Shown: piece after piece, positions 12,053 to 52,550 of the stretch
How the letters are laid out: each line of letters starts with the position of its first letter
Position numbering within the stretch: position 1 is the first letter of the stretch
From: Fimbriimonas ginsengisoli Gsoil 348
Lineage (GTDB): Bacteria > Armatimonadota > Fimbriimonadia > Fimbriimonadales > Fimbriimonadaceae
Direction: 5' to 3'
Assembly (NCBI RefSeq): GCF_000724625.1
Contig: NZ_CP007139.1
Span: 3,596,001-3,660,000, forward strand
Length of the DNA stretch: 64,000 nucleotides
The notes under the pieces: generated by a model
The model's database searches: none
What the model saw: only the letters and a program-made list of their open reading frames with translations
Told to the model about the DNA's origin: nothing
Program-made: the position numbers and the translations under genes

Positions 12053-13381
12053 TCACGCGGTCGCCTCCACCGACGTCCGCAAACGAATTTGAGCCTGCTG
12101 CTCTCGCCTTGCAATGACCGCCATCCAGCTCACGATCGCCAGCATGAACCCGACTTCGACCTTGCGTTCGCCTCCAAATGGGGAGAAGAGAAGGTCCCAC
12201 GAGAGCTGGGTGATGGTGTAGCAAAACAGCGGACCCCACACCCCGAGCGTGTTAAAAGTGCCGGTGAACAGCGTACGCAACATCTGGAGCAGCGCGAACA
12301 TCCAGAAAATTCCGCCGCAAATTCCGGCCTCGACCCACCCCTGAAGGAGAAACGAGTGGGTTGGAATGCGCCCCGTGGTACGCACCGAGCCTTTCTGAAT
12401 CCCCAGCTCGTACGACCGGGAGTGGACGAATTCATAGTCCTTGGCCCACGAGCCGTATCCGATGATCGGCGATCGCAAAATTTCCGGAACGGAAAACAGC
12501 ATCTCATTTCGGCCGCCTAGGACGATGTCGAAGGGGCCGACGTCCTCCTGGCTAATCGAAATCTGCGTTTCGTATTTCTCTTGCCCTTCCTTTCCAAGCA
12601 AACCGTTCGAGGCGGCGTATTTGTATAGTCCAAGGATCGCCAAAATCCCGAGGACCATCGTGCAAATCGCCGCAATCGATTTACGTCGCAGCTTCGTTTT
12701 GGAAGGGGTTGCTTTGCCTACATCCAAGATCCAAAGCGAAAGAATTCCGGTCGCAAGAAGCGTCATTCCTGCGGCCGAACGTGCATTTTGCGAGAGCGCG
12801 ACCAGCCCGGAAAGAAGCGGCAGAATAAGCGCCATCCGCCCAAACCTTGCGGACAGGTACCCGGCGCCGATGAAACAGACGCACGAAACCGGAATCGCCA
12901 AGTAAAACTTATAAAGCGGTAAGGTCGGTCCGGCGGCGGCGGAGGCCAGGATAACCATTAACGAACCGACCATGTAGGCGGCCATTCGCCATGGTTTGCC
13001 GTCCAATAAGGCGGGAGCTAGGAAAAGGGTGAGCAAGAAGATCAATATCTTCGCCCAGCCACGGAAGTAATCCTCCTCGGCGGATTGCCGAACGAAATCC
13101 GAGGTCACCAAGGAGACGAAATAGATCACTCCAAGCGAGAGAAATGTCCGAAAAGGCTTCATTCGGACGATCTGCGTCGCCTTCCGAATGTAGAAAGGGG
13201 CGAGCACGATCACCAAAATATCGCGCGCCCCAAGCTCGCCCACGAAGGAGAATTTAAGGAGTCCGGCCAAGCCGATAAGAAACAGGAGCCAGACGTTCCG
13301 ATCCCTTAGCGGATGATACGGTCGAGACCTGGCAGCACCTTCCGCAAACGAAAGGTATGAAAGGGATGTGGGCGCGCTCAT
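12053..13381 (-). CDS. O-antigen polymerase/ligase-like membrane protein (Wzy)
   Basis: A 442-residue polytopic protein with roughly ten or more hydrophobic segments and one large loop (about residues 245-340) before the last helices, the layout of Wzy/WaaL (PF04932-type) proteins. The loop holds GRNEMLFSVPEILRSPIIGYG and TGRIPTHSFLLQGWVEAG, matching the family pattern G-x-G ... HSxxLxxxxExG. With the Wzx-like flippase at 18857 it makes this a Wzy-dependent locus. First gene of the minus run. Confidence 0.85.
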   Translation of the reverse strand: MSAPTSLSYLSFAEGAARSRPYHPLRDRNVWLLFLIGLAGLLKFSFVGELGARDILVIVLAPFYIRKATQIVRMKPFRTFLSLGVIYFVSLVTSDFVRQSAEEDYFRGWAKILIFLLTLFLAPALLDGKPWRMAAYMVGSLMVILASAAAGPTLPLYKFYLAIPVSCVCFIGAGYLSARFGRMALILPLLSGLVALSQNARSAAGMTLLATGILSLWILDVGKATPSKTKLRRKSIAAICTMVLGILAILGLYKYAASNGLLGKEGQEKYETQISISQEDVGPFDIVLGGRNEMLFSVPEILRSPIIGYGSWAKDYEFVHSRSYELGIQKGSVRTTGRIPTHSFLLQGWVEAGICGGIFWMFALLQMLRTLFTGTFNTLGVWGPLFCYTITQLSWDLLFSPFGGERKVEVGFMLAIVSWMAVIARREQQAQIRLRTSVEATA

Positions 13382-39391: not shown

Positions 39392-40506
39392 ATGGTCAAC
39401 CCCCGAGAGGCGAGCTGCTGGCGCATTTCATCGACCTTGTCGATGGCGGTTTGCTCCTGCAGCCATTCGGCGAGCTCAGCGAGTCCGTCGTCCAACAGAA
39501 TTTGGGGCTCGTATCCAAGCAGCTCGCGGGCCAGCGTGATATCGGGGAAGCAGTGGCGGACGTCGCCGACCCGGTATTGGCCGCAAATCTCCGGTTCGAT
39601 ATGCTCCTTCCCCATCGCCTTGGCGACCTTGCGGGCGGTTTCTTCGATGGTGTAGCTCATGCCGCTGCCGACGTTGATCGCCCGGCCGGTCGCCTCCTCG
39701 CGCTCGATCGCGAGCCGGCAGGATCGGGCGACGTCTTTTACGCTGACGAAGTCGCGAAGCTGCTGGCCGTCTTCGAAGATCAGGGGCGGCTTGTCGTTGA
39801 GGAGCCGCGATCCGAAGATCGCGAGAACGCCGGTGTACGGATTGGAAAGCGCTTGTCGAGTGCCGAAGGCGTTGAAGAAGCGGAGGGCGACGGTCGGGAT
39901 GTTGTAGGCCTTGCCGATCATCAGGCACATCCGCTCTTGGTCGTACTTCGAAAGCGCGTAGATCGATGGAAGCGTGGGACGTTTCCATTCCGGGGTGGCG
40001 ACCGGGGTTAGCGCATTTCCTTCCACATCGCGGACCTGCCAGTCTTGGGCTCGCAATTGGTCGATCGACCTTTCGCTCGCTTCGGCGATCTGGCCATCGG
40101 GGCGTTTGTACAACCCCTCGCCGTACAGGCTCATGCTAGAGGCGATGACGAGGTGCTCTACCGGCTGAGCGACCAATGCTTCGAGCACCACGGCGGTTCC
40201 AAGGTTGTTCACCTCGGTGTAGCGCGCGATGTCGTACATGCTCTGGCCCACGCCGACGATCGCGGCGAAGTGGTAAACGTGGTCGATTCCAATGAGCGCG
40301 CGTTTGACGGCTTCCGGGTTGCGCACGTCGCCAACCATAAGCTCGACGTCCGGCGACAGGTAGTCCGGGCGCTTGCCATCCGAGCCATGAACCTGAGGGG
40401 AAAGGCTGTCCAGGATTCGTACCCGGTAGCCGTTTGCGAGCAATTCATCTGCAAGATGAGAGCCGATAAACCCGGCGCCTCCCGTGATCAATACCGATTT
40501 GTTCAT
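39388..40506 (-). CDS. NAD-dependent epimerase/dehydratase (GalE-like SDR)
   Basis: 372 residues from ATG 40506, first gene of an eleven-gene operon. NAD motif GGAGFIGSHLADELL, HFAAIVGVGQS, catalytic SIYALSKYDQER and RFFNAFGTRQ. It belongs to the NDP-sugar epimerase/dehydratase SDR group; the exact sugar is not readable. The leader just upstream carries a (GAAGA)6 tract that also provides purine-rich Shine-Dalgarno-like sequence. The frame is open through that tract to 40620, so a longer product is possible. Confidence 0.87.
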   Translation of the reverse strand: MNKSVLITGGAGFIGSHLADELLANGYRVRILDSLSPQVHGSDGKRPDYLSPDVELMVGDVRNPEAVKRALIGIDHVYHFAAIVGVGQSMYDIARYTEVNNLGTAVVLEALVAQPVEHLVIASSMSLYGEGLYKRPDGQIAEASERSIDQLRAQDWQVRDVEGNALTPVATPEWKRPTLPSIYALSKYDQERMCLMIGKAYNIPTVALRFFNAFGTRQALSNPYTGVLAIFGSRLLNDKPPLIFEDGQQLRDFVSVKDVARSCRLAIEREEATGRAINVGSGMSYTIEETARKVAKAMGKEHIEPEICGQYRVGDVRHCFPDITLARELLGYEPQILLDDGLAELAEWLQEQTAIDKVDEMRQQLASRGLTI

Positions 40507-40515
40507 CTTCTTCTC

Positions 40516-40545
40516 TCTTCTCTTCTCTTCTCTTCTCTTCTCTTC
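40516..40545. repeat. (TCTTC)6 microsatellite in the operon leader
   Basis: Six perfect 5-bp units TCTTC at 40516-40545, flanked by partial units; read on the minus strand it is GAAGA six times, ending 9 bases before the ATG at 40506. The unit length is not a multiple of three, so slippage would change spacing and, for any extended start, the frame. The rest of 40551-40769 is the divergent leader with ugd; I see no clear promoter pair. Confidence 0.85.
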
Positions 40546-40769
40546 TCTCTCGCGGTCATCCAAGTCCTTCGCGGCGAACCGACAAGCCGGCCTCCCCGGG
40601 GGAGCGCCACCGCCGAGCATCTACAAAGGTTTCGATCTGACTGCGGTTTTTCGAAATCGGTTCGAGATGAAGATGAAGAAGATTTTTGGGAACCGAAAAT
40701 TCCTTTCCCCTCTCTGATGTGCGGGCAGATGAGAGCTGCCGCGAAGAGCCGTTCGGGGGTTTGAAGCTT

Positions 40770-46776: not shown

Positions 46777-47375
46777 GATTGCTCCTTAACGTTGGATTCG
46801 TATGGGGTGGGGTGGGCGGCGACGATCAGCCGGTGCGATCGCCCGCCCGGGGACGACGCATCGTGGTAGTGCGAGACCAATGCGGTAACCGCCCGGGTTA
46901 GGTCGGCGGTGAACGCTGCCCGCTCGGTGGCGGATCGGAACCGGATCTCGGTGTCGATCGATAGCGTGGGGAGGTGCTTATCCGCTTCGCGGGCTCGGCG
47001 GACGAGGTCGCCGACTTCTTGCACGATCCGCGCGGCCAGCGCGATAAGATAGCTAGCGGATAGCCGATCGGCGGTCCGCGCCGGGTCGGTAGCGGCGAGC
47101 CCCATCGCCTTGGGCGCAACGACGTACGACGCCGCGCTGGCGACGAAGAGCCGCTCCGTGATCCCTCCCCACTTCCGCTGCCCGGCCTGGCGCACCAGTT
47201 GGTGGGTTTCGAGGGCGTTGAGATGGTAATTCGCCTTCTGCCGGGTTAAGCCAACCTTCGCCGCCACGGAAGCGGCGGACTCCGGCTGACTCAACTCGGC
47301 CAGCAACCGACTCCGAATCGGCTCCAGCGCGACGGTCGCCGCCGAGGGGTCATGGATCACTTGCAGGTCGAGCAC
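46773..47375 (-). CDS. ArsR-like winged-helix regulator
   Basis: 200 residues. The N-terminal wHTH is clear: LEPIRSRLLAELSQPESAASVAAKVGLTRQKANYHLNALE. The C-terminal region (about 60-190) is alpha-helical and of unknown ligand. It starts at GTG 47375, exactly where transcription should begin (TAGAAT ends 6 bases earlier), so it is probably leaderless. The operator palindrome covering its own -35 box indicates autorepression. It overlaps the SRPBCC gene by 4 bp. Confidence 0.85.
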   Translation of the reverse strand: MLDLQVIHDPSAATVALEPIRSRLLAELSQPESAASVAAKVGLTRQKANYHLNALETHQLVRQAGQRKWGGITERLFVASAASYVVAPKAMGLAATDPARTADRLSASYLIALAARIVQEVGDLVRRAREADKHLPTLSIDTEIRFRSATERAAFTADLTRAVTALVSHYHDASSPGGRSHRLIVAAHPTPYESNVKEQS

Positions 47376-47381
47376 GGGGCT

Positions 47382-47413
47382 ATTCTAAGCCTTGACAACT
47401 TTTGTTGTCAAGG
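47382..47413 (-). promoter_or_regulatory. Promoter and operator of the ArsR-like/SRPBCC operon
   Basis: CCTTGACAAC (47390-47399), TTTT, GTTGTCAAGG (47404-47413): a perfect 10-bp inverted repeat. On the minus strand its outer half supplies TTGACA (47411 to 47406), an 18-bp spacer follows, then TAGAAT (47387 to 47382). Binding of a dimeric repressor would cover the -35 element. Confidence 0.8.
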
Positions 47414-47817
47414 GTTTTAAAGGGGAAACTGGGCGGCTTGGATTTGGGGCGCATCGCAGAGAGCCTGTTGGATGGTATTCGGTGGGTTCGAGGGCTCCTG
47501 CTATTCGTAGGCTGATGTCGCCGCTTTCAGGGCTCGGAGGGTTGTCGGCCCCTTTACCAGGGCTCCGCTTCGCTCCGACCTTTGCTTTGAGATGTCGCGC
47601 CTTCAGCGCTGGCTCCGGATCTGCCCTCGGACGCAGCTTCGATCTTAGGCGCCCCACGTAGAAGGCATGCTATGCAACGGCTTCCAGAGGACAGAGATGC
47701 AGCGCTCTTGGTCGACTTAAGATGGGGAGCCTTCGATTGTTTTGCCGCTCGTCCGAGCTTGAACACGACGACCCACCTTCGATTGGGGTTACACTTACTT
47801 GTACATCAACTCGGCGA
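47414..47817. other. Intergenic region with structured, repeat-like DNA
   Basis: No gene. Sequence is strand-skewed and rich in short inverted motifs (GGGCTCGGAG, CAGGGCTCCGC), and its minus-strand translation contains PALKARHLKA, the kind of artefact seen when an intergenic repeat is called as an ORF. Its other copies, if any, lie outside this window. Confidence 0.4.
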
Positions 47818-50800
47818 TCATTCGTTCGGTAGCCGGGGCAGCAAGAAAGCCAAGTCTGGCGAGGACTCCCAATCCTCCCGCGCCGCGGCAAGGTACGCCG
47901 CCCGCTCCTCCCCCGATCCGGCAATCCCTGCCAACCGCAAGTTGGCCTCCCCGGCAAAGTGCCGGTTTGGAAGCGACCGGAACAGCCCCAATGCATCGTC
48001 CCACGCCCGCCTCTTCGCCTCGACGTCTGGCTCGAAGTCCCCCAGCCAAAGGCATGCCTCCGCTTCCTCGAACCGGCCTTCGACCTGCGCCAGCTCCCCG
48101 CGAACCGCTCTCAACTCACGCGCAGCCTCCTCGGCATCGCCTCTCACACCTCGGATGCGCATTTGTAAGGCCCAGAAAATGGCTTCATTTCGTTTGTCCC
48201 CGATTTTTTGGAAGAATTCCCCGGCAATTTGCAGTCCTGCTTCTTCAATGTCGTCGCGACCAGCTTCGATTCTGGTCCTCGTAAACCCGTAGAGCGAACC
48301 CGCCTCCCCCTGCCGATCTCCAATCTCCTTATAGAGGATCTGAGCCGCTCGATATCCTTCCTCTGCCTCGGCGTAGGCATCGCGCACGCGTGCCACCTCG
48401 GCAAGGCCACCCAGCACGTTTGCTTCTCCCCGCCGATCTCCGATCTTCTTGAAAATGGTCAGTGCTGCCCGATAACCTTCCTTCGCCTCGGAGTAGGCAC
48501 CGCGCATGCGTGCCACATTGGCAAGCCCATCCAGCGCGTTTGCCTCTCCGGACGGGCTTCCGACCCCCTTATAGATGATCTGAGCTGCTCGATAACCTTC
48601 CTCCGCCTCGCAGTAGGCACCGCGCAGGCTTGTGACATCGGCAATGCGGACAAGCGCATTAGCCTCTCCGTGCCGGTTACCGACCTCCTTATAGATGGTC
48701 AGGGCTGCTCGGTATCCCTCCTCCGCCTCAGAGTAGGCGTCGCGCATCTTTGCCACGTCAGCAATGCCCCTAAGAGCATGTGCCTCTCCCTGCTGGTCTC
48801 CGGTTTCCTTGTTGATGGACAAAGCTAATCGGTATCCTTCCTCCGCCTCGGGGTAGGCATCCCGCATCTTTGCCATGTCGGCAAGGGCCTTGAGCGCATG
48901 TGCTTCTCCCTGCCGATCTCCAATCTCCTTATAGAGGATCTGAGCCGCTCGGTAACCCTCCTCCGCCTCGGCGTAAGCACCGCGCATGCTTGCTACGTCA
49001 GCGAGGCCCCTAAGCGCATTAGGTTCTCCGTGCCGGTTTCCGACCTCCTTGTAGATGGCCAGGGCCGCTCGGTATCCCTCCTCCGCCTCGGCATACGCAT
49101 TGCGGATACTTGCCACTTCGGCAAGGCCGATCCGCGCATTTGCCTGGGCTGATTTGTCGGGACGGGCCATTGCAGTTATCAGGCCCCGTTCGAAAACAGT
49201 GCGCGCATCGTCGTTGCGGGAGGTCACTCGCAAGAATTCACCGAGGTGGTAGAAACAAGCGAGCACCAGACCTGGCGGAACTGTTCCTTCGACGATGGCG
49301 CGCGCGGCAGGCTGGCTCGCTCTACGCAGGACGTTCCATCCGGGACTACCCGGCATTTCGTTGCCGCGCTCGCGCACGAGTCCTACGTAATAGCCGCAGT
49401 ACGCTCGGCGCATCGCCTCAAAGGAAATCTCGGCCCGTTTGGCGAGCACGAGCCGCACAATTGTCGGCAATTCATACTCGCTGGCGCCGTGCACTTCCGT
49501 GCGCCGTAACAACGACCACCGGGTCCACTCGGTCAACTGACTTCGGCTGACCTTCAAGTGAAGCTCGGCGTCGTCCGCGACGAACGGGTACTCGAACGGC
49601 GCGAGCTTGAGGAACGCCTCCCGATCCTTCTTTTTCAGCCGATCGATGGACCAACTGACGCACGCTTCTATGCTCCGCTGGCGCGCCACGCCGACCGAAT
49701 CTTCGCCGGACGTCTGGAGCCAGGATAGCGCCGCCTTCTCCACGCCATCCGCAATCTCCTTCAGCGTGGCGTCGTTCGCATGGGCGCCCAGCAGCTCCAG
49801 CGCCAGAGGCAGACCCTCGGTCGCCCGAAGCACCCGCAGAAGCGCCTTTAGGTCAGAAAACTCGGTAACGCCACGCTGGGCTGAGCGATCTCTAAACAGC
49901 GTGAACGCCTCGCTACCCTCGATATTATCTTCACTCGTCGGCACTCCCAGCGACCGCTGCTTCACCTCGGCCGTGACGTTCAGCGGGGAAGCCGCATGCT
50001 GGCTGGTTGCCAGCGCCCGCACATTCCGAGCCTGTTGCAGCAGATTCCCCAGAAACGCGTTCGTCTGCGTATTCGCGACGCTCTCGAAGTTGTCTAGGAA
50101 GAGCAGAAGGGTCCCTTGCCGGGCAAGGTAGCCGGCGAGGCTGCCAGATGGATCTTTCCTGACCACCTCCGGCGCCCGCACCGCTTCCGCAAGCATAGAC
50201 GCGAACGAGTCCGCCGTCACGTCCTCGGGCACGTTGGTGGTCAGTACATCGAACCGCGCGACGTGGACCCCGCCCGCGAAGCGCCCCTGGATCCGTTTGA
50301 TCGCCTCCACCGCGGTCGATGTCTTCCCAATCCCCCCGGGCCCGTGGAGTAGCAGCATCGGCGGCTCCCCCCGCTCTGCCCACTCAACAACCCGGGCGAT
50401 CATGTCCTCGTATCCGACGAACTTGCCCCGAGCTCCCAAGCTCAATAGAACTTCCATCCCGGGCAAAGCTGCGCCCTCCTGCGGCGTTTCCAAGGTCACC
50501 TGCACGGCCGGAGCCATCGGCGCCGACCCATGATCCAGAAAATGGCGAATCCGCTCCTCTTTCCCCACCGGCAGACCTACAGAAGCCGAAGCTATGATCG
50601 CGTCCGCGTACTGGTCCAATGCCTCCTCCACGGCCGCGTTCTGCGCCTGATCCCGGATGAGTTTCAAAAGCGTCGGCGCCTGCCGCTCCTTTGCGGACGC
50701 GCTCAAGGTCCGGTGAGCGTTCTGAAGCGCCCCTTCAAGGAGATCCACGTCTTCGAATTCACCCCAAACCACCGGCACAAGCCCGGTGTAGCCGCCCTCG

Positions 50801-51165
50801 ACTGGCTCGGAGCCAATCCGGTCTAGAAACGCAAGTAGCTCCTTAGCCGACTCACTCCCTACCCGGAAGAAGCTGGGAGAAAGCACCGCCACCAGACACC
50901 CGCACCTAGCCAGCTTCTCGCTGTGCCGAACCAAATAATCCTGCCCCACTCGGTTGTCCCGCCAGTCTGCGAACAGAACATCCCCATCCTCCTCGATCCG
51001 AGCCATCCGCGGCCCTAACCGAGCCCGAACCCGCGCCACTAACCGGCGAGTGAATTCCGCGAGATACCGCCCATCCCAAGCATCCTCTCCGGCATGACAA
51101 AGGAATCCGATTGGCTTTGGCAGATCGATCGGTCCGGGGTGGGGCTCCACTTTCGAGTATTTCAC
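47818..51165 (-). CDS. TIR-like / NB-ARC (STAND) / TPR immune-receptor-like protein
   Basis: About 1115 residues. Numbered from the upstream TTG 51228: residues 38-135 look like a TIR domain (PIGFLCHAGED, GCLVAVLSPSFF, then SAKEL with Glu 130 at the site of the NADase catalytic Glu). Residues 265-560 are an NB-ARC-type STAND ATPase with Walker A GPGGIGKT (296-303), Walker B LLLFLDN (374-380), TSQ (408-410) and GLPLAL (472-477). Residues about 697-976 are seven near-identical 40-residue TPR units. This is the plant R-protein architecture, known in bacteria as antiphage cell-death proteins. GTG 51165 (or 51150) is preferred because the promoter lies inside the longer frame. Confidence 0.8.
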   Translation of the reverse strand: MKYSKVEPHPGPIDLPKPIGFLCHAGEDAWDGRYLAEFTRRLVARVRARLGPRMARIEEDGDVLFADWRDNRVGQDYLVRHSEKLARCGCLVAVLSPSFFRVGSESAKELLAFLDRIGSEPVEGGYTGLVPVVWGEFEDVDLLEGALQNAHRTLSASAKERQAPTLLKLIRDQAQNAAVEEALDQYADAIIASASVGLPVGKEERIRHFLDHGSAPMAPAVQVTLETPQEGAALPGMEVLLSLGARGKFVGYEDMIARVVEWAERGEPPMLLLHGPGGIGKTSTAVEAIKRIQGRFAGGVHVARFDVLTTNVPEDVTADSFASMLAEAVRAPEVVRKDPSGSLAGYLARQGTLLLFLDNFESVANTQTNAFLGNLLQQARNVRALATSQHAASPLNVTAEVKQRSLGVPTSEDNIEGSEAFTLFRDRSAQRGVTEFSDLKALLRVLRATEGLPLALELLGAHANDATLKEIADGVEKAALSWLQTSGEDSVGVARQRSIEACVSWSIDRLKKKDREAFLKLAPFEYPFVADDAELHLKVSRSQLTEWTRWSLLRRTEVHGASEYELPTIVRLVLAKRAEISFEAMRRAYCGYYVGLVRERGNEMPGSPGWNVLRRASQPAARAIVEGTVPPGLVLACFYHLGEFLRVTSRNDDARTVFERGLITAMARPDKSAQANARIGLAEVASIRNAYAEAEEGYRAALAIYKEVGNRHGEPNALRGLADVASMRGAYAEAEEGYRAAQILYKEIGDRQGEAHALKALADMAKMRDAYPEAEEGYRLALSINKETGDQQGEAHALRGIADVAKMRDAYSEAEEGYRAALTIYKEVGNRHGEANALVRIADVTSLRGAYCEAEEGYRAAQIIYKGVGSPSGEANALDGLANVARMRGAYSEAKEGYRAALTIFKKIGDRRGEANVLGGLAEVARVRDAYAEAEEGYRAAQILYKEIGDRQGEAGSLYGFTRTRIEAGRDDIEEAGLQIAGEFFQKIGDKRNEAIFWALQMRIRGVRGDAEEAARELRAVRGELAQVEGRFEEAEACLWLGDFEPDVEAKRRAWDDALGLFRSLPNRHFAGEANLRLAGIAGSGEERAAYLAAAREDWESSPDLAFLLPRLPNE
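48298..49137 (-). repeat. Seven 120-bp tandem repeats (TPR units)
   Basis: Seven in-frame 40-codon units with the core EAEEGYRAA, and an eighth, degenerate one beyond 48298. Units 1, 4, 6 and units 2, 7 are particularly close, differing at a handful of residues. The DNA is similar enough to recombine and change copy number. Confidence 0.9.
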
Positions 51166-51199
51166 GGAGGTAATGACCAGTATCGGCAGGGTCGGAAGG

Positions 51200-51228
51200 A
51201 ATATAACCTTACTCGGAGCCAACGTCAA
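51200..51228 (-). promoter_or_regulatory. Promoter of the TIR-STAND-TPR gene
   Basis: On the minus strand TTGACG (51228 to 51223), 17-bp spacer, TATATT (51205 to 51200). The TTG that would be the earliest start codon is the -35 box itself, so translation begins further in, at GTG 51165 or 51150. Confidence 0.7.
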
Positions 51229-51272
51229 CTGACCCTCTACATTGGGAAAATAGACTGCCAGTCTGAAAGTGA

Positions 51273-51336
51273 CCGTAGCCCGGGGATTTATCCCCGGAGG
51301 AGCCGCGAACCGCAGCTAAAGCTACGGGGTACGGGT
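51273..51336 (+). repeat. Palindromic intergenic repeat, copy A
   Basis: Two stems in a row: GTAGCCCGGGGATTTATCCCCGG type (CCGGGGA/TCCCCGG) and an imperfect stem built on CCGCGAACCGCAGCTAAAGC. A second copy lies in opposite orientation at 61361-61425, sharing a 25-bp identical block. Confidence 0.8.
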
Positions 51337-51453
51337 CACATCAAAGAAGGCAAACGTAAACCCAATCTGTCGCTGCCCATCTGGGGGCCGATAAGCTGGG
51401 GAATGCGCCAAAGAGCGGCGTTAGAGGGCGGTGACCCAGGGGAAAGAGAGGAA

Positions 51454-51529
51454 TGGCTGCCGCAATAGGACTCGAACCTATGACCCGCTGATTAACAGTC
51501 AGCTGCTCTACCAACTGAGCTATGCGGCA
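51454..51529 (-). tRNA. tRNA-Asn (GTT)
   Basis: The minus strand starts TGCCGCATAGCTCAGTTGGT. It has an acceptor stem TGCCGCA/TGCGGCA, D arm, anticodon loop CTGTTAA with GTT (51494-51496), TψC arm GGTTCGAGTCC, discriminator G and an encoded CCA at 51454-51456. Total 76 nt. Confidence 0.96.
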
Positions 51530-51565
51530 GTAGGTTGAGAAATATACCTCGGAACTGGGGGGCGG

Positions 51566-52312
51566 TCAAGGGGCGGGATGGGAAGAAGAGTGGGCGACGA
51601 CGACGGGTGGCGGTGGTGGGGTGGAGCCGATGATGTTGACGGCCCGGCCGACGAGGAGGACGATGATGCTGAGGGAGATGCTTGCCTGCACCATCATCAG
51701 CCCCTTGGCCCATCGGCTCAATACCGGGGCGTCGGTCGGGGAGAGGGCCGCGCTCGAGTTGTATGCCAAGAAAAGGTAGTCGATGAAGCCGGGTTTCCAG
51801 CCCTCCTGTCCGGTCTTTTCGAGCTGTTCGGGGCTCATCGACATTTGGGGGAATAGGAATGCGCCCTCGTGATGCTGAAGACGAGCCGCCCTCGCGTGCG
51901 GACCGCCGGCATCGAGCCGCCAATACCAGCAGGCGAACACCAACACGTTCGTGGCCCAGAGGCCGGCCGCCGACTTTAGTAGCTCGCTGGGGGTCTCTTT
52001 TTGCCCCTTGAGGCCCAGGACCAGTAGTGCCAGCGAGGCCAGCATGAAGCAGGTGAGGATGGCGAGCAAGACGTACGCCAAAATCGTATTGAGCCGGTGC
52101 CGATGCTGGCGATGGCTTAGCATGAGCGGCGCCGCCGTCAAGAGCACGATCACCATTGGGATCCACCGCATCCGAGTGTCGGTAAACGGCAGCAGCTTCG
52201 TAGGAAGCGACGCATAGAGTCCGCCGATCGCCAGCAATGCGACCAACACCGGCCACCGCTGCTCCGCGGAGCCCAGGCGGCAAGCAATCCTTCTGGCCCA
52301 ACGATGGGACAT
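51566..52312 (-). CDS. DUF1345-like membrane protein
   Basis: 248 residues with about six hydrophobic segments. The C-terminal motif WKPGFIDYLFLAYNSSAALSPTDAPVLSRWAKGLMMVQ is the signature of the DUF1345 family. The loop before it carries a charged region (GGPHARAARLQHHEGAF) and the end is Pro/His-rich (STPPPPPVVVAHSSSHPAP). No known function; no operon partner. It lies 36 bp from tRNA-Asn. Confidence 0.82.
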   Translation of the reverse strand: MSHRWARRIACRLGSAEQRWPVLVALLAIGGLYASLPTKLLPFTDTRMRWIPMVIVLLTAAPLMLSHRQHRHRLNTILAYVLLAILTCFMLASLALLVLGLKGQKETPSELLKSAAGLWATNVLVFACWYWRLDAGGPHARAARLQHHEGAFLFPQMSMSPEQLEKTGQEGWKPGFIDYLFLAYNSSAALSPTDAPVLSRWAKGLMMVQASISLSIIVLLVGRAVNIIGSTPPPPPVVVAHSSSHPAP

Positions 52313-52320
52313 GGGGATAA

Positions 52321-52490
52321 GGGTACCGGGTGGGAGGCGTTGGGCGTTAAGGTGTTGCGGTGTTGGTTAGCGTGAGGCTTTACCTCGTTTGATGGGACGG
52401 ATGGGTCGAATGGGACTGATGGGTCTTATGCGCCCCATCAGTCCACACGACTGCGGCCACAACACCGTAACACCGCAACACCCGGTACCC
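52321..52490. mobile_element. 170-bp MITE-like palindromic element
   Basis: GGGTACCGGGTG (52321-52332) and its exact complement CACCCGGTACCC (52479-52490) are 12-bp terminal inverted repeats. Inside lie a second inverted pair (GGTGTTGCGGTGTT at 52351-52364 with AACACCGCAACACC), four 9-bp tandem units (GATGGGACG type, 52391-52426) and a central 11-bp hairpin GGACTGATGGG/CCCATCAGTCC at 52413-52444. No ORF. It sits in the glpX leader region. Confidence 0.6.
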
Positions 52491-52550
52491 TATTCTCACC
52501 TTCGAGCCCGGCAGTGTTGCCGGGTGATCTACGACGAGGTAGAGCGAAAA

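Follow-up and report, generated by a model that had tools for sequence, protein, structure and literature searches.

A diverged TPR-repeat array in a bacterial NLR-like gene and a related plasmid pair that differs in unit number

The window, by which we mean the whole 64,000-nucleotide stretch of DNA analysed here, carries an ordinary bacterial NLR-like gene with a real, well-formed repeat sensor. The explanation that we favour, at a probability of roughly 0.55, is that the gene encodes a single-gene NLR-like receptor whose TPR array is an older, partly decayed version of the nearly identical arrays that change length in some related receptors. The main alternative, which we place not far below even odds, is an ordinary static TPR domain that was duplicated long ago and is kept alike by helix packing, with no continuing recombination; the 44-nt tract shared by two of its units would then be due to chance or to shared constraint.

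An NB-ARC protein with a TIR-like N-terminus

The genome consists of one contig of 5,231,762 bases. The gene and its parts are arranged as follows.

47818..51228, minus strand: STAND gene, the longest ORF, 1136 codons with a TTG start
50749..51114, minus strand: TIR-like N-terminal domain, about residues 39-160 (Pfam TIR_2 and blastp to the L006 protein)
49762..50409, minus strand: NB-ARC ATPase, residues 274-489 (Pfam NB-ARC)
48304..49143, minus strand: seven 40-residue TPR units (Tandem Repeats Finder, an independent repeat search, in-frame translation and Pfam TPR_12)
47821..48303, minus strand: diverged helical C-terminal part (two compared 40-residue stretches have 15-32% of residues in common with the TPR units)
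51200..51228, minus strand: promoter-like site TTGACG-17-TATATT (consensus match only; three found in the region against 1.0 expected)

The true start probably lies downstream of the TTG, for example at the GTG at 51165 (codon 22). Because the TTG sits in the promoter-like -35 box, the protein may be about 21 residues shorter than the ORF.

The NB-ARC domain scored 33.7 bits against a Pfam cut-off of 23.5, which bears out the initial annotation of a STAND protein. Its motifs are GPGGIGKT at residue 296, LLLFLDNF at 374 and GLPLAL at 472 (P-loop and GLPL type by the usual NB-ARC names). By eye, ELPTIVR at residue 586 occupies roughly the expected place of the MHD-type motif of the winged-helix part and contains no histidine; the ELPT found here appears degenerate.

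The N-terminal domain scored 17.6 bits with TIR_2, below the Pfam cut-off of 28, and it matched a protein of the same genome (L006) by blastp with an E-value of 2e-9; the latter passes TIR_2 with 33.5 bits. Glu130 aligns with a glutamate of this TIR paralogue, presumably at the position where TIR enzymes keep theirs. The predicted model of the domain was too poor to confirm a TIR fold (pLDDT 41.4). The L006 protein itself (L006:532-3526) has an iSTAND match below cut-off, and the adjoining ORF begins, by eye, like the end of another TIR domain. A further STAND paralogue of this genome (L002, at G000:C1:2830494-2832254) was matched by reading through an internal TAG.

TPR_12 matched the array with a Pfam E-value of 3.2e-21. 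A single-sequence model predicts a long helical superhelix for the TPR part (mean pLDDT 77.5), with 78-96 per 10-residue block over the array, and the units are accordingly modelled as helical hairpins with the TPR consensus that stack into a superhelix. The best PDB structure matches of this model were LGN/Pins TPR domains (E 1e-12, first TM-score 0.63 by target), which also led the sequence comparison with solved structures. With PADLOC, the protein matched a general TPR model and, weakly, PDC-S39 (E 0.0025) and mad8 (E 0.0055); no clear known defence system emerged.

Divergence, probable exchange and groove variation within the array

Tandem Repeats Finder placed the array at 48302-49145 (period 120, 7.0 copies, 75% matches, score 760), and a second, independent search found seven copies at a constant spacing of 120 bp. 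Each unit is exactly 40 codons long and in frame with the ORF.

49024-49143, minus strand: unit 0
48904-49023, minus strand: unit 1
48784-48903, minus strand: unit 2
48664-48783, minus strand: unit 3
48544-48663, minus strand: unit 4
48424-48543, minus strand: unit 5
48304-48423, minus strand: unit 6

The seven 120-bp units of the initial annotation are thus real, whereas its description of pairs as almost equal or near-identical was overstated. Across the 21 unit pairs, identity ranged from 52 to 82% in residues and from 66 to 82% in bases, with a mean unit identity of 66%. The closest pair, units 1 and 6, reached 82% in both measures; the remaining 20 pairs spanned 52-75% in residues and 66-80% in bases. 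Synonymous distances between units were about 0.47-1.41 (Nei-Gojobori), so the duplications look old and not recent, as a static array would have it. Where two units have the same residue, they use the same codon in 63.2% of 546 comparisons; codon usage in the rest of the gene would predict 41.5%. The likeness of the units therefore exceeds codon bias, and silent sites still carry traces of their common descent.

All seven units found their best match within the array, with 27-33 of 40 residues shared, whereas no match elsewhere exceeded 24 of 40; the array thus grew from a single module. This comparison covered 150 units from 40 translated frames, the window's included, after setting aside L001, L019 and L025 (the window's own gene), exact duplicate frames, and L029, L032, L035 and L043, which overlap other loci. 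Likewise, among the 24 arrays that had three or more units, 11 had every unit's best match in the same array.

One stretch departs from this even divergence.

48908..48951, minus strand: 44-nt tract of unit 1, identical to unit 6
48308..48351, minus strand: 44-nt tract of unit 6, identical to unit 1

This was the longest exact in-register match between units, followed by 23 nt for units 0 and 3; all other pairs shared at most 17 nt, which agrees with a static array. Units 1 and 6 lie five places apart and agree at 44 of 44 positions inside the tract against 55 of 76 (72%) outside it. Three shuffle schemes make the tract unlikely under the static alternative. The run of shared variable codons in this pair had a p of 0.0006 by permutation of codon columns, and 5000 site permutations yielded no run as long as the observed one, both schemes ignoring rate differences along the unit; codon shuffles within columns, which ignore kinship between units, reached 44 nt in 3 of 3000 cases (p about 0.001). 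A run test on silent codons alone gave a p of 0.0025, or about 0.05 after correction for 21 pairs, and this marginal value speaks for the static array. To judge from the sequence pattern, the tract probably arose by one internal gene conversion.

The initial annotation had proposed recombination between units and had named an invariant unit number together with equal divergence of all units as the results that would contradict it. The divergence is in fact nearly equal apart from the tract shared by units 1 and 6, and the proposal retains this one likely exchange, which is weaker when silent sites are taken alone.

Positions 2, 5, 9, 12, 13, 33 and 34 of the TPR are the most variable and are exposed on the concave face (Magliery and Regan, PMC1261162). 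We had set this groove list after viewing the units and before consulting the cited paper, which agrees with it. Mean entropy in the window array was 1.51 at groove positions versus 0.57 elsewhere (p 0.0006). The pN/pS ratio was 0.60 at groove positions versus 0.33 outside the groove, the latter value being in line with a static array. Of 15 distinct arrays with four or more units, 9, among them the window's, had raised groove entropy at p < 0.05, and such a bias is therefore typical of TPRs. The direction of the groove-biased variation fits ligand-facing change, without an excess of replacement over silent change. In this comparison, akin to the dN/dS check that had been suggested along with the recombination proposal, groove positions vary more than the others, yet pN/pS for the whole set is below 1 and positive selection at the groove is unsupported. 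Positions 5 and 12 alone gave a pN/pS of 1.24; they were two positions picked after viewing the units, and we make no claim from them.

Related arrays and a Streptomyces pair with seven and nine units

STAND-TPR proteins are common in the group: the whole-protein query found some match in 62 of 85 family genomes, its own genome included, and the array-only query in 166 of 291 phylum genomes. The family search scored at most eight candidates per genome, and among the matches listed, other than the gene itself, identity was 23-35%. The N-terminal 288 residues matched the gene's own genome alone among the 291 phylum genomes, and neither the family nor the phylum search found an orthologue. Two scans of a genome collection and one of a viral collection confirmed no relative, a single-protein query of this kind reaching close relatives only and possibly leaving out the window's own genome; a phage collection gave no match to the array. 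On plasmids, 139 records matched the whole protein and 115 the array, with the best place in each below 60% identity.

The array comparisons (unit identity, best match and groove entropy) drew on 54 loci, a part of the family and array matches. Unit identity was compared across 16 arrays of at least four units, or 15 distinct ones, as L032 repeats L012; L001, L019 and L025 (the window's gene) and exact duplicate frames were set aside. Among these 16, the window array ranked fifth by mean unit identity (0.66), behind L023 (Halocatena, 0.85), L020 (0.83), L021 (0.78) and L030 (0.69). L023:913-4161, on a plasmid of the archaeon Halocatena salina, encodes a STAND-type protein whose TPR units reach identities of 100% in residues and 93% in bases.

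Two of these arrays belong to closely related receptor genes on Streptomyces plasmids.

L020:820-3909: receptor on Streptomyces plasmid NZ_CP108790.1
L021:562-3891: receptor on Streptomyces plasmid NZ_CP109405.1

Both genes encode caspase, NB-ARC and TPR_12 domains, and an EACC1 gene precedes each. Upstream of the array they share 97.1% DNA identity over 730 codons. As assembled, with collapse of identical units being possible, L020 has seven TPR units and L021 has nine, and the protein lengths of 1029 and 1109 residues differ by exactly two units. In L020, six units do not differ at a single base (100% DNA identity), and the last unit is diverged; L021 contains eight related units (seven mutually 94-99% identical, the first 87-89%) and the same diverged last unit. 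Compared between the two genes, the repeated units are 90-96% identical, while the last unit and the short tail show 92% and 93% identity. Taken as a whole, the 3' end has therefore diverged further than the 5' part. The units have been homogenised separately within each gene. Most of the differing unit positions lie, by eye, outside the groove set, and we do not claim groove-directed change for this pair. Among 206 plasmid records, no others besides these two reached 80% coverage of the N-terminal query, so the difference in unit number comes from a single pair. The proposed change in array length is supported by this one related natural pair and is putative for the window array.

The window protein resembles the Streptomyces receptors in having an NB-ARC domain followed by 40-residue TPR_12 units, and it is 40.6% identical to them over 320 array columns. 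The Streptomyces proteins differ from it by their caspase, the adjoining EACC1 gene and units that are nearly or fully identical, whereas the window protein is TIR-like at its N-terminus and its units are related but diverged.

In fungal NLRs, WD, ANK and TPR arrays can be strongly conserved internally, polymorphic in repeat number and variable at concave positions, and concerted evolution has been suggested (Dyrka and colleagues, PMC4986451); in Podospora, the polymorphism was shown between isolates (PMC4986451). The idea of repeat-length change is therefore already established in fungi. The window gene shares with these NLRs the NB-ARC domain and TPR sensor, repeats that are alike within the gene and variability of the concave face. 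It differs in that its best unit pair, at 82%, falls short of the cut-off of more than 85% over at least 100 residues used in PMC4986451, which L020 would pass, and in that a difference in repeat number was seen here in the Streptomyces pair only. In bacteria, retroelement-driven change of putative sensors has been tied to NACHT-domain systems (PMC10907252). Our literature search, which covered titles and abstract openings and left subscription journals mostly outside, found no report of unit-number change in bacterial STAND TPR arrays.

A survey of 26 intragenic tandem repeats in Legionella included several TPR genes with 108-bp repeats of about 66-75% identity (PMC2639597). As reported there, the seven genes that varied in copy number include none labelled TPR, and three months of passage left every array unchanged. 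This result favours stability in arrays that have diverged as far as the window's, and with it the static alternative.

We tentatively propose, rating it slightly under an even chance, that NB-ARC receptors of bacteria whose TPR arrays are built of 40-residue units diversify in the manner of fungal incompatibility NLRs, whole units being gained and lost and each array homogenised and then re-diversified; the window gene would represent a late stage of this process and the Streptomyces pair an active one. This bears on how bacterial receptors change recognition: should TPR arrays be gained, lost and homogenised in the way described for fungi, changing a sensor would come down to unequal recombination, a process open to laboratory measurement. 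Natural alleles of one receptor, with seven and nine units, are available in the Streptomyces pair, and the window gene offers a quieter comparison.

Genomic setting and proposed function

The setting of the gene bears on a further explanation, which is compatible with the favoured one, namely that the gene is recent mobile cargo inserted beside a tRNA gene.

51454..51529, minus strand: tRNA-Asn (gtt), about 225 bp upstream of the STAND ORF

The proximity of this tRNA gene and the failure of the family and phylum searches to find an orthologue both agree with such an insertion. So does a genome of the same genus (L074), in which tRNA-Asn adjoins glpX without the STAND gene, an AraC-like gene (by eye) standing there instead. 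Against it, the region 47000-52500 contains no direct repeat of at least 16 nt besides the array, and the GC content of the gene (0.617) is close to that of the flanking 8-kb blocks (0.603 and 0.626). The other four glpX stretches compared contain glpX and lack the tRNA gene, so they offer no comparison of the site. A scan for the tRNA 3' end with up to three mismatches, as expected for an attachment site, returned the tRNA itself and places with three mismatches at 12502, 34490 and 61679, none of which borders the gene; 0.83 matches were expected in all, and the search pattern differed by one base from the tRNA's own end. Taken together, we regard recent insertion as possible and lean against it.

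MalT is a sugar regulator. It is improbable that the window protein, instead of being an immune receptor, regulates transcription or metabolism as a MalT-like STAND: TPR-sensor STANDs do include MalT (PMC6468293) and TPR_MalT matched the protein with 23.7 bits, below the cut-off of 45, but no DNA-binding domain exceeded its Pfam cut-off, the sole HTH-named match (FAN1_HTH, E 0.21) fell inside the TPR part, and the N-terminus is TIR-like. The protein has a STAND core with a TPR sensor in common with PH0952 and MalT, and it differs from them by its TIR-like domain, a domain that the abstract of PMC6468293 does not name.

For the favoured NLR-like receptor, the described cycle of TPR-sensor STANDs offers a model: a closed ADP form, sensor contacts, opening and multimerisation (PMC6468293). 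At rest, the NB-ARC domain would be held closed through contacts with the TPR sensor. A ligand in the TPR groove would free it, and the protein would then oligomerise. The TIR-like domains would subsequently act, probably on NAD-type nucleotides, and the cell would be killed or arrested. The seven units would derive from old tandem duplication of one 40-residue module inside the gene; their divergence since then would have centred on groove positions, and one conversion between unit 1 and unit 6 would probably have followed. The TIR-type output and the immune role of the protein are inferred, and so is any influence of the number of units on which ligand is bound, a shift of ligand range having been proposed in the initial annotation.

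The combination of TIR, AP-ATPase and TPR parts resembles the AP-ATPases of predicted conflict systems (PMC7159879). Unlike the systems described there, the five window neighbours scanned with Pfam contain no vWA, MoxR or peptide-processing domain. On one side, the gene is flanked by an AHSA1/Polyketide_cyc2 gene and an HTH gene, and on the other by a membrane protein gene with a DUF1345 match below cut-off. Elsewhere in the window, 8.6 copies of TCTTC (plus strand) occupy 40506-40548. This pentanucleotide repeat immediately precedes the likely ATG (MNKSVLITGGAGFIG) of a gene on the minus strand, by eye similar to an NAD-dependent epimerase, and could vary its translation.
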